Source of the DNA: an uncultured Ignavibacteria bacterium
Lineage (GTDB): Bacteria; Bacteroidota; Ignavibacteria; Kapaibacteriales; Kapaibacteriaceae
Reading direction: 5' to 3'
Length of the DNA stretch: 64,000 bases
NCBI GenBank assembly: GCA_903939735.1
Contig: CAJAIA010000033.1
Span: 1-64,000, forward strand
Shown: in pieces, positions 17,536 to 23,980 of the stretch
Layout: every line of letters begins with the position of its first letter
Position numbering within the stretch: the first letter of the stretch is position 1
Notes under the pieces: model-generated
The model's database searches: none
Told to the model about the DNA's origin: nothing
What the model saw: only the letters and a program-made list of their open reading frames with translations
Made by a program: the position numbers and the translations under genes

Positions 17536-18819
17536 CTATGGTTTTTTGAATTCAGGCACTAAACCCTGCCAGCATTCCCAATAATCGTGCTGCAACTCAC
17601 CAGACGACATCGCAAACGCAGTTGGACGACAAACGAAACGCGTTTCGAACATGAAGGCCATGGTGTTCTCGATCTTCGTCGGCTTGAGATCCGCCTTTGT
17701 CATCTTCGCATACGTATCAGCGTCCGGACCGTGTCCGCTCATGCAGTTGTGGAGCGACGAGCCCCCTGGCACGAATCCTCCGCCTTCCTTTGCATCGTAC
17801 ACACCTTCGATGAGGCCCATGTACTCGTTCATGAAGTTGCGGTGGAACCATGGTGGACGGAATGTGTCTTCTGCCACCACCCACCGTGGCGGGAAGATCA
17901 CAAAGTCGATGTTTGCCGTACCCGGCGTATCGCTCGGCGACGTGAGCACAGTATAGATCGACGGATCTGGATGATCGAACGTAACCGTATTAATGCATTG
18001 GAACTTACGCAGGTCGTACTTGTACGGCGCATAGTTGCCATGCCACGCAACAACATTGAGCGGAGAATGATTGTAGACGCCCTTCCAGAGATTGCCCTGG
18101 AACTTTGCGATCACGTCAACCATCTCGCTGCGCTCTTCATACCACGCTTCCGGAATCAGAAAATCGCGTGGATACGCTAGGCCATTCGCACCGATTGGTC
18201 CAAGGTCGGGCAGACGAAACGGGGTGCCATAGTTTTCGCAGATATAGCCACGCACCGGACCGCTGACTTCGACACGGAACTTTACACCGCGCGGAATCAC
18301 ACAAATCTCCTGCGGTTCCACGTCGATGATGCCCATTTCCGTGAAGATCCGCAACGAGCCCAGCTGAGGCACAATCAGCATCTCACCATCGGCGTTGTAG
18401 AAGAACGTCGAGGTCATCGACGTGTTGGCCGCATACACGTGAATCGCCGACCCAATGTGCGTTGTCAAGTCCCCATTGCCGGCCATCGTAGCGATGCCCT
18501 CAATAAAGGTCGTCGGCTTCTCTGGAATTGGCAAGGGGCTCCAACGAAGCTGATTCGGCGTCGTTTCAACCTCGGTAAACGGCGTCGATCTGATGAGGCC
18601 ATTGTCGATGCGCTCATAGGGGCGGTGCACAACTGATGGACGAATGCGATACATCCACGACCGCTTGTTTGCGCCTCGGGGTGCAGTGAATGCCGTACCG
18701 TTGATTTGCTCAACGTACAGTCCAAACGCCGGCTGTTGTGGCGAATTCCGTCCATCCGGGAGCGCACCCTTGATGGCTTCGGTGGCAACATCATTGCCAA
18801 ATCCACTCATGTAGCCCAT
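17536..18819 (-). CDS. hmgA: Homogentisate 1,2-dioxygenase
   Basis: The 427-aa product has a family start ([18 protein letters not shown]) and the iron ligands His326 and Glu332 ([12 protein letters not shown]) and His363 (NCMSGHGPD), equivalent to the known His-Glu-His triad. It opens the homogentisate ring to maleylacetoacetate in tyrosine and phenylalanine catabolism, in the cytoplasm. No other gene of that pathway is in the window. It starts 31 bp after tRNA-Arg on the same strand, with no clear promoter between them. Confidence 0.96.
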
Positions 18820-21336: not shown

Positions 21337-22617
21337 ATGAAGCTCGAGAAGATTCTTGACGACTTGTTTGCGATGACGTACCACGCTGGTATCAAGCCGG
21401 GATTGGAACGCATCACCACCTTATGCGCATCGATCGGCGATCCCCATGCACGACTTCCAGTGATTCACGTTGCTGGCACCAATGGGAAGGGATCAACATG
21501 TTCGATGATCGCGTCGATTCTGACGCATGCGGGGTATCGCACCGGACTCTACACGTCGCCACATGTCCGGCATTTCCGTGAACGTATCCGCATCGACGGC
21601 GTGACCATCAGCGATGAGGACATCGCACGTCTCGCCGTTCCGTTGATGGCGACAGCACGCGATATTGGCGGGACATTTTTCGAAGTCACAACAGCCATGG
21701 CTCTGCAATACTTTGCCGAGCGTCGTGTTGACGTCGTGGTTCTGGAGACGGGGCTAGGCGGACGCCTGGATGCAACGAACATCGTACAGCCGTTGATGTC
21801 GATCATCACGCAGATCGACATGGATCACATGGAATACTTGGGTACGACACTGACTGCAATTGCGGGTGAGAAGGCTGGCATTATCAAGCATGCAACGCCC
21901 GTGGTTGTGGGACACCACGGAGCTGATGTGCGTCCGGTGTTTGAGCGCAAAGCCGAACGCGAGCGCGCACCAATTGTGTTCGCCGATGACATCGTCGACG
22001 TACAGTGCGACCGCATCTTCCCGGATCTTCAGATGTCGGTAGCCGTCACCTCGATCGACGATCGTCGCTATATGATGACGGACCTTCCCGGAGTCCATCA
22101 AACTCGAAACATCGCAACAGTGCTTGCAGCGCTCCCAACGCTTCAATCGATTTATCACATCGAAGACACACACGTCGAGCAGGGTCTGCGCCGCGTACGT
22201 GCAACCGCTGGCTTGAGCGCACGTTGCGAACTGGTCCAGATGCAGCCGCCCGTGGTGCACGATGTGTCTCACAATCCCGGGGGAATTCGAGCGCTCGTCG
22301 ACACACTACGGAATGCTGGATACCCTGAACGCTCCTTCCAGGTTGTGTTCGGTGCAATGTCGGATAAAGATGTTGACGGAATGCTCGATGCGTTGCTGCC
22401 GATCGCACACACGGTACACCTATGCTCGCCCCATATCCCTCGGAGTATGCCTGTGCATGAGCTTACGAAGAGAGCGATTGCCATCGGCCATCAATCATTC
22501 ACTACGTCAGACTCTGTCGGCGATGCCTACCGAAGGGCATTAACGACAGAAGCTCCCACAGTTGCCTGCGGGAGCTTCCACGTGATCGACGAAGTGCGAG
22601 CGTTATCCGAGCAGTAA
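21337..22617 (+). CDS. folC: Folylpolyglutamate synthase / dihydrofolate synthase
   Basis: The 426-aa Mur-ligase-fold protein has the ATP-binding HVAGTNGKGSTCSMIASIL (about 46-64), VLETGLGGRLDATN, DMDHMEYLGTTLTAIAGEKAGI and the C-terminal HDVSHNPGG. It adds glutamate to dihydropteroate and then to folates in the cytoplasm. The length is normal. Its end overlaps the convergent PAS-prenyltransferase gene by 15 bases, and the 3' end of the gene holds an inverted repeat that could terminate that gene. Confidence 0.95.
   Translation: MKLEKILDDLFAMTYHAGIKPGLERITTLCASIGDPHARLPVIHVAGTNGKGSTCSMIASILTHAGYRTGLYTSPHVRHFRERIRIDGVTISDEDIARLAVPLMATARDIGGTFFEVTTAMALQYFAERRVDVVVLETGLGGRLDATNIVQPLMSIITQIDMDHMEYLGTTLTAIAGEKAGIIKHATPVVVGHHGADVRPVFERKAERERAPIVFADDIVDVQCDRIFPDLQMSVAVTSIDDRRYMMTDLPGVHQTRNIATVLAALPTLQSIYHIEDTHVEQGLRRVRATAGLSARCELVQMQPPVVHDVSHNPGGIRALVDTLRNAGYPERSFQVVFGAMSDKDVDGMLDALLPIAHTVHLCSPHIPRSMPVHELTKRAIAIGHQSFTTSDSVGDAYRRALTTEAPTVACGSFHVIDEVRALSEQ
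22549..22578 (-). terminator. Inverted repeat inside folC, possible terminator for the PAS-prenyltransferase gene
   Basis: GAAGCTCCC (22549-22557) and GGGAGCTTC (22570-22578) form a perfect 9-bp stem with a 12-nt loop. It lies in folC coding sequence and about 24 bases after the stop of the convergent gene. On the minus strand it is followed only by TGTCGTT, so termination is uncertain. Confidence 0.4.
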
Positions 22618-23886
22618 GGCAACGATGAAGAGGATCGAGAAACCGATCTGGAATTGAATCGTTGCAACGTTGCCCTTGACGAGCGTACGTGCGTAGAGAT
22701 GCTTCCGCATGTAGGAGATGATCCATGCTGCGAAGAATGTTGTGATTCCCGCAACAGCATACAGGTATGGATTGTTGAGCGCCGAGCCGAGGTAGGCCGT
22801 TACGCCGATCGCACCGCCAATGAAGAGCGCATAGAACCATACAGCCGCACGATATCCGAACGTCACTACAAGGTGCGCCTTCCCTGTCGCAGCATCACCC
22901 TCAGTGTCAGGGATCTGATTGATCAACAGAATGTTCGACGTGAGGAGTCCTGCTGGAACACCAACGATGAAGGCCATTGTTGCGAATGACGACCACAACT
23001 CTGGAGCAGACATTGCTGTTGCGACGTAGAACACACCCAGTGTGATCAGTGGACCAAACGCGAGTCCGATAACGACTTCACCAAGACCATGACGCGCCAC
23101 AAGGCGCAGCGGCGGTGCCGTGTAGAAATAGCCGAGCGCAAGACCAGCAAAGCCAATCGCAAGCACGCCCGTACCTACTGCATATGTGAGGTACACACCA
23201 ATCAGGAACGCACACAGCGCAAGAACATTTGCGACGCGTAGCGTTCCCTTAAGATCGATCAGACCCAAGAAGATCGAACGTGATCCGCCTGAATACTGCG
23301 TGAAGTACTTGGTGTTCGCTTGATCTGTTCCGCTCTTGTAGTCGAAGTAGTCGTTGTACACGTTGCTCGCCAAGTGAAGCAAAGCCACACCCACACATGC
23401 GAGCGTCGCATGCAGCCAGTTCACACTGTGGTCGAGCACACCCGACACATACGCAAGCGCAATGAAGCATGGTGTAAGTGCTGCGGTGAGGAACGGTGCA
23501 CGCGTAACGACAAGCCACTTCACAACCTTTGTCGATCCCTTGATCGGCACATCAACCGGCTGATCAAGCTCTTCGGTCACACCGCAGAATCCGATCTGTA
23601 CGCCGTTCTTAAATGTTGGGGTGATACGGATCTGCGCGCCGAACAAGTCACCATTCTTCCGACGGAAGTTGGTTTGCCCGACCCACTCGCCTTCCTTCAC
23701 CGCAGTTGCTAGCCAACCGCCGAGGTTCTGCAGAACGATCTCGCCTGGCGAAAAATCGCTCACCCGAACCTTGCCGATTGTCTCTTCGCGCGAATAACCG
23801 AACATCACTTGCGCCCCGTCGCTGAAGGTTTCAACGATACCTTCCATGTCGCAGGTGATGACAGACTTATCAAGTGCTGTTGCCAC
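22603..23886 (-). CDS. PAS domain - UbiA/MenA prenyltransferase fusion
   Basis: The product is 427 aa from GTG 23886 (GGAG lies eight bases upstream). Residues about 5-108 form a PAS/PAC domain (VITCDMEGIVETFSDGAQVMFGYSREE, then WVGQTNFRRKNGDLFGAQI). Residues about 120-427 form a UbiA integral-membrane prenyltransferase with the two Asp motifs NDYFDYKSGTD (178-188) and DTEGD (327-331), plus about nine helices. The enzyme part resembles MenA, which prenylates 1,4-dihydroxy-2-naphthoate in menaquinone synthesis. The PAS sensor may tune quinone synthesis to redox, oxygen or ligand. No LOV-type cysteine motif is visible. No other men gene lies nearby. Confidence 0.85.
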   Translation of the reverse strand: MATALDKSVITCDMEGIVETFSDGAQVMFGYSREETIGKVRVSDFSPGEIVLQNLGGWLATAVKEGEWVGQTNFRRKNGDLFGAQIRITPTFKNGVQIGFCGVTEELDQPVDVPIKGSTKVVKWLVVTRAPFLTAALTPCFIALAYVSGVLDHSVNWLHATLACVGVALLHLASNVYNDYFDYKSGTDQANTKYFTQYSGGSRSIFLGLIDLKGTLRVANVLALCAFLIGVYLTYAVGTGVLAIGFAGLALGYFYTAPPLRLVARHGLGEVVIGLAFGPLITLGVFYVATAMSAPELWSSFATMAFIVGVPAGLLTSNILLINQIPDTEGDAATGKAHLVVTFGYRAAVWFYALFIGGAIGVTAYLGSALNNPYLYAVAGITTFFAAWIISYMRKHLYARTLVKGNVATIQFQIGFSILFIVALLLG

Positions 23887-23936
23887 GAGGTCTCCAAAAA
23901 CATTGGTAGTTGAACGAGATTATGCACAAACATACG

Positions 23937-23944
23937 ATGACCGA
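23937..23944 (-). promoter_or_regulatory. TAnnTTTG -7 element of the PAS-prenyltransferase gene
   Basis: TATGTTTG on the minus strand lies 50 bases upstream of GTG 23886, in the 94-bp divergent spacer shared with purH. Confidence 0.5.
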
Positions 23945-23967
23945 CCCATCGGTCGAAATCGATGCGG

Positions 23968-23975
23968 TATCTTTG
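23968..23975 (+). promoter_or_regulatory. TAnnTTTG -7 element of purH
   Basis: TATCTTTG ends five bases before ATG 23981. This both supports that start codon over the upstream in-frame one and predicts a leaderless mRNA. Confidence 0.65.
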
Positions 23976-23980
23976 TTGTC

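Follow-up and report, generated by a model that had tools for sequence, protein, structure and literature searches.

A single open reading frame in the window (the whole stretch of DNA analysed, 64,000 nucleotides) encodes a PAS domain followed by a membrane prenyltransferase of the UbiA superfamily. This PAS-UbiA architecture is real, conserved and apparently undescribed, and nothing relevant to such a fusion was found in the open-access literature. With moderate confidence, we read the protein as a PAS-gated, MenA-type quinone prenyltransferase whose PAS domain responds to a small-molecule or redox signal. The membrane UbiA part, of a MenA-like branch, would move a polyprenyl chain onto the aromatic head group of a quinone, most likely a ring of the 1,4-dihydroxy-naphthoate type, and the cytosolic N-terminal PAS domain would read the signal and gate the enzyme. 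We infer quinone prenylation, the identity of the ring and PAS gating, the last being assumed from the domain architecture.

Control of quinone synthesis is usually ascribed to gene regulation or to feedback acting on early enzymes, one example of the latter being the inhibition of MenD by DHNA (PMC9835592). The conservation of the fusion, together with carriers that lack the known menaquinone-ring markers, suggests a direct and undescribed control of quinone production. If this is true, a sensor fused to the prenylation step would act as a direct switch on the electron-carrier pool, with ligand or redox control placed inside the quinone-forming enzyme itself. Among the genomes tested, the fusion is limited to organisms without MenB, MenD and MqnC, which raises the question of where these respiring bacteria obtain their quinone ring.

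Architecture and conservation of the fusion

The fusion gene and its parts map to the window as follows.

22603..23886, minus strand: PAS-UbiA fusion gene, 427 aa, GTG at 23884-23886 and stop at 22603-22605, with fused orthologs
23892..23895, minus strand: GGAG ribosome-binding site, 5 nt before the GTG, from the sequence
23887..23980, strandless: divergent intergenic region between the fusion and purH (purH start ATG 23981)
23563..23883, minus strand: PAS domain, aa 2-108, predicted cytosolic (Pfam PAS_9, AlphaFold, fold matches)
23539..23562, minus strand: short linker from PAS to the first UbiA helix, aa 109-116 (alignment and model)
22606..23538, minus strand: UbiA prenyltransferase domain, aa 117-427, multi-helical, membrane (Pfam UbiA, structure matches)
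23323..23355, minus strand: Asp-rich motif 1, NDYFDYKSGTD, aa 178-188, key residues invariant
22894..22908, minus strand: Asp-rich motif 2, DTEGD, aa 327-331, D327 and D331 invariant

The original prediction had placed the gene at 22603-23886 without naming a strand; the coordinates are right, and the strand is minus. From GTG to stop, the window sequence is a single open frame with no internal stop or frameshift. The start had been put at a GTG with a GGAG ahead of the PAS domain, and this too holds: the start is kept in relatives, which carry a GGAG-like motif ahead of an ATG or GTG at the equivalent place. The gene overlaps the end of the convergent folC by 15 bases, and a search of the intergenic region shared with purH found no sigma-70-type promoter match.

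Both halves are recognized by curated profiles. Pfam PAS_9 matches aa 8-100 (32 bits against a cut-off of 27, E 1.5e-7), the NCBIfam sensory_box model also matches the PAS part (28.4 against 22.9), and Pfam UbiA matches aa 137-395 (104 bits against 34.2, E 9.9e-30). Mean pLDDT is 85.8 in the AlphaFold model of the full-length protein and 91.9 in that of the PAS domain alone, whose strands span aa 7-13, 17-21, 68-75, 81-93 and 96-106. In structure comparisons, the N-terminus matches PAS structures at Z 14-17.6; the best is 3lyx (Z 17.6), and NifL, Aer and MmoS come next at Z about 14.5-15.5. The N-terminal 110 residues are thus predicted to fold as a PAS domain, and profile score and alpha/beta fold together place them in the PAS family. 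The membrane part aligns with UBIAD1, the human menaquinone-4 synthase, over 269 residues (Z 25.6, rmsd 2.9) and with A. pernix UbiA at Z 22.7. By profile, Asp motifs and multi-helical fold, it is a member of the UbiA prenyltransferase superfamily. Both Asp-rich motifs lie where they had been predicted, and N178, D179, D182, G186, D188, D327 and D331 are invariant across 35 orthologs. The linker is a few residues longer in the orthologs from Chloroflexota, Gemmatimonadota and Gammaproteobacteria.

Judged from the sequences, the fusion is far beyond chance: PAS_9 and UbiA profiles both match in 35 of 35 aligned orthologs, and dN/dS, measured against the 96%-identical nearest relative, is about 0.05 in the PAS and UbiA parts alike. 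The PAS domain is under strong purifying selection. It is also the more conserved half of the protein, with a mean pairwise identity of 0.65 (UbiA part, 0.51); this favours a ligand or function that is specific and has not changed.

Distribution and origin

Within the window's family, 19 of 23 genomes (its own and 22 relatives) carry the fusion, at 61-96% identity and in six genera; in three of the 19 the gene is split or cut by contig ends. One further genome of the family has a C-terminal piece only, at a contig end. Two short peptide patterns, run against about 85,000 species genomes, returned 38 fusion loci, a number that is a lower bound because of the patterns used. These loci fall in Kapabacteria/Ignavibacteria, marine Flavobacteriales, Anaerolineales and other Chloroflexota, a gemmatimonadete and a gammaproteobacterium, and one fusion-bearing assembly labelled Bradyrhizobiaceae groups with the Kapabacteria. 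The fusion is therefore conserved in at least four bacterial phyla, and the proposed search for PAS plus UbiA architecture across genomes has found it recurring well beyond the window.

Trees built from the UbiA columns alone place the fusions in one clade; a quick 60-row tree gives it an SH-aLRT of 95, and a careful 44-row tree a support of 93/92. This grouping makes a single origin likely, and the fusion probably arose once. Separate PAS and UbiA genes in close relatives would have pointed to an assembly join; they were sought among relatives, and none was found. That an assembly or annotation artefact joins two neighbouring genes can be dismissed as vanishingly improbable, since the frame is intact, 19 of 23 family genomes and 38 loci across the species genomes carry the fusion, and an identical junction recurs in dozens of independent assemblies from several phyla.

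Relationship to MenA

MenA models are the best NCBIfam matches of the UbiA part, every one of them below its equivalog cut-off. The fusion scores 47 bits against a cut-off of 102 for TIGR00751 and 109 against 264 for PRK06080.1-3; the stand-alone true MenA of the window's family reaches 195 and 328, well over both. Genuine MenA also falls elsewhere in the UbiA tree, and the fusion clade is separate. Like MenA (TIGR00751, PRK06080), the fusion has the UbiA fold and both Asp motifs, and MenA is its best-scoring profile family; it differs in its N-terminal PAS domain, its sub-cut-off scores, its own clade, and carriers without MenB, MenD and MqnC. Neither cut-offs nor tree grouping make it a canonical MenA. 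The prediction of a MenA/UbiA prenyltransferase bearing a PAS domain therefore stands in part: sequence, structure and phylogeny bear out a conserved PAS domain on a MenA-type enzyme, but the enzyme is not MenA by curated cut-offs. The direct control of menaquinone synthesis that it proposed is a reasonable hypothesis.

The window's genome encodes three UbiA proteins: the fusion, plus a heme O synthase and a PRK08238 protein that each score over their cut-off. Complex I (NuoH) is present as well, as is a MenG over cut-off. We looked for a menA beside menG, including one lost at a contig edge, and found none there. If the organism makes its own quinone, these two other UbiA proteins leave the fusion as the sole candidate to carry out prenylation in this genome. 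Eight or more genomes of the family have a true MenA adjacent to MenG as well as the fusion, which may serve a different purpose in them; in relatives with both, the two genes are redundant or specialised. We further note a CrtD/carotenoid-desaturase-like FAD protein directly upstream of menG in the window's own genome (L114:1425-2990, G000:C12) and in another genome of the family (L116).

Ring supply and genome context

No MenB over cut-off and no MqnC were found in any fusion genome tested, and no MenD over cut-off was found in 35 fusion genomes, where two weak matches reach about 75 bits against 244. MenB is present in twelve genomes of the same order, along with MenD in the four of these tested, and none of the twelve carries the fusion, a pattern that is phylogenetically clustered and compared without matched controls. 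MenB-like matches of about 140-165 bits in the window's family are taken as enoyl-CoA hydratase paralogs, since they fall short of the 342.7 cut-off and true MenB of the same order scores 366-485. Similarly, PF02621 (MqnA/MqnD) matches of at most 36 bits in the family are taken as unrelated binding proteins because MqnC is absent. The MenG of the window's genome scores 204 bits against a cut-off of 335 for MpqE, the NCBIfam model of the methyl-plastoquinone methyltransferase, so a methyl-plastoquinone pathway is not indicated. Sampled genomes of five other families of the order (f2, f3, f5, f6 and f9) are also without MenB and MqnC over cut-off.

NuoH is found in 29 of 35 carriers and MenG over cut-off in 26 of 35; MenG was not found in eight carriers outside the family, several of which are small or draft genomes. 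With no MenB, MenD or MqnC, the carriers may take up the ring or build it by a route that these markers miss. The missed MenA cut-offs and the missing ring genes together mean that the product may be another quinone, or a menaquinone whose ring is imported. A precedent for import is L. plantarum, which is without most menaquinone genes and uses exogenous DHNA (PMC10746273).

In the gammaproteobacterium, the fusion lies between nqrF and nqrA, the latter one of the nqrABCD genes of the Na+-translocating NADH:quinone reductase (L067:2849-12674), and a V4R-domain protein lies beside it at the same locus. Six marine flavobacterial genomes have a MenI/EntH-like hotdog thioesterase, below equivalog cut-offs, directly upstream of the fusion (L058:5508-5933; equivalents in L059, L060, L061, L069 and L071), and NuoH was not found in these six. 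SnoaL-like proteins, 41% identical to each other, lie beside the fusion in two distant genomes (L048:7397-7750 and L067:5622-5948).

The PAS pocket and its possible signal

Three invariant PAS residues bear on the signal, and a motif, RVSxFSPG, is invariant or nearly so in the PAS alignment.

23851..23853, minus strand: C12, first PAS strand, invariant in 34-35 orthologs across phyla
23584..23586, minus strand: C101, last PAS strand, invariant in the PAS alignment of 34 rows
23665..23667, minus strand: F74, invariant, aligned with the flavin-contacting Asn of Aer and LOV PAS domains

The signal would most likely be a quinoid or aromatic compound bound in the PAS pocket, either a ring precursor or the quinone, because all carriers tested are without the marker genes of known ring synthesis and would need rings from outside or from an unusual source. 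Since free naphthoquinols are redox-toxic, it would be useful to the cell to match prenylation to the supply of rings. PAS folds are known to take such ligands, and this, together with ring supply being the odd feature of these genomes, favours a quinoid or aromatic ligand; DHNA, for example, acts on AhR, a PAS-type receptor (PMC7312509). A wider proposal, which we consider possible though doubtful, is that PAS-UbiA marks a quinone system of several phyla in which the ring comes by an undescribed route or by obligate scavenging, with the PAS domain sensing ring or quinone and gating prenylation.

The main rival to a quinoid or aromatic ligand is a thiol-redox gate, in which C12 and/or C101 would be oxidised by quinones or oxygen and the quinone pool would feed back on its own synthesis. 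Both cysteines are invariant across phyla, the redox sensors Aer, NifL and MmoS are among the structural relatives of the PAS domain, and ArcB and EvgS sense quinone redox state through PAS cysteines (PMC8174306). The ArcB and EvgS domains, which belong to histidine kinases, offer a possible parallel, and their Cys positions and mechanism may differ from those of the fusion. Conserved Cys can also be structural, and alignment to LOV and Aer predicts a pocket-facing C12 and an outward-facing C101, which does not readily suggest an intramolecular pair. We regard a thiol gate as somewhat unlikely.

A target of prenylation other than a respiratory quinone, such as a carotenoid, pigment or other aromatic, is unlikely. 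The sub-cut-off scores and separate clade of the UbiA part, the absent ring pathways and the co-occurrence of true MenA in some genomes would all fit such a substrate. Against it, the window's genome has no other candidate for supplying the quinone of complex I, unless quinone is taken up whole, and the fusion has Nqr and MenI-like neighbours elsewhere.

PAS domains commonly dimerise, and the domain might merely dimerise the enzyme or dock a partner, with no sensing. UBIAD1, the best structural match and itself a regulated UbiA enzyme, acts together with a partner protein (HMGCR complex 8djk) in place of a fused PAS domain; it is about 20% identical to the fusion. The strongest invariants of the fusion include pocket-type core residues, and the PAS domain is better conserved across phyla than the enzyme domain, which makes a structural role decidedly unlikely.

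Sensing of oxygen, light or redox through a flavin or heme cofactor is very unlikely. The nearest PAS folds do bind FAD (NifL, Aer, MmoS), FMN (LOV) or heme (FixL), and Aer, NifL and MmoS, which are linked to redox sensing, share with the fusion a cytosolic PAS domain; the fusion has Phe in place of their flavin Asn, and an enzyme rather than a signalling domain forms its output. We compared positions that we take to be the flavin and heme contacts of the Aer, LOV and FixL-type families, ignoring a match to 7rdr, a repeat protein with low per-domain scores. In the alignment to Aer and a LOV protein, the adduct-forming Cys of LOV is absent and F74 stands in place of the flavin Asn, and no invariant His that could serve as the axial ligand of a FixL-type heme occurs in the PAS alignment. 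A LOV photosensor and a FixL-type heme PAS are both unlikely on these grounds, and the light and oxygen control suggested in the original prediction finds no support, in these two forms, among the pocket residues. An aromatic or quinone ligand, or thiol redox, appears likelier from the aligned residues than LOV light sensing or FixL-type heme oxygen sensing.

Neighbouring genes and a second fusion

A homogentisate 1,2-dioxygenase-like gene lies at 17536-18819 on the minus strand of the window, about 4 kb from the fusion, and a gene of this kind is near the fusion in eight loci of the family, the window included. Homogentisate is a quinone precursor in other organisms. Functional linkage of the fusion to this dioxygenase, purH or folC is probably absent, the linkage being conserved inside the window's family only.

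A sister family contains a second sensor-like fusion on the same class of MenA-like UbiA enzyme (L024, L026 and L028). These proteins resemble PAS-UbiA in that a soluble domain precedes a MenA-like UbiA part, and their genomes, too, have neither MenB nor MqnC. Their N-terminal domain, however, is an unrelated split barrel, PNPOx-like and below the Pfam gathering cut-off, and they occupy a separate place in the UbiA tree.
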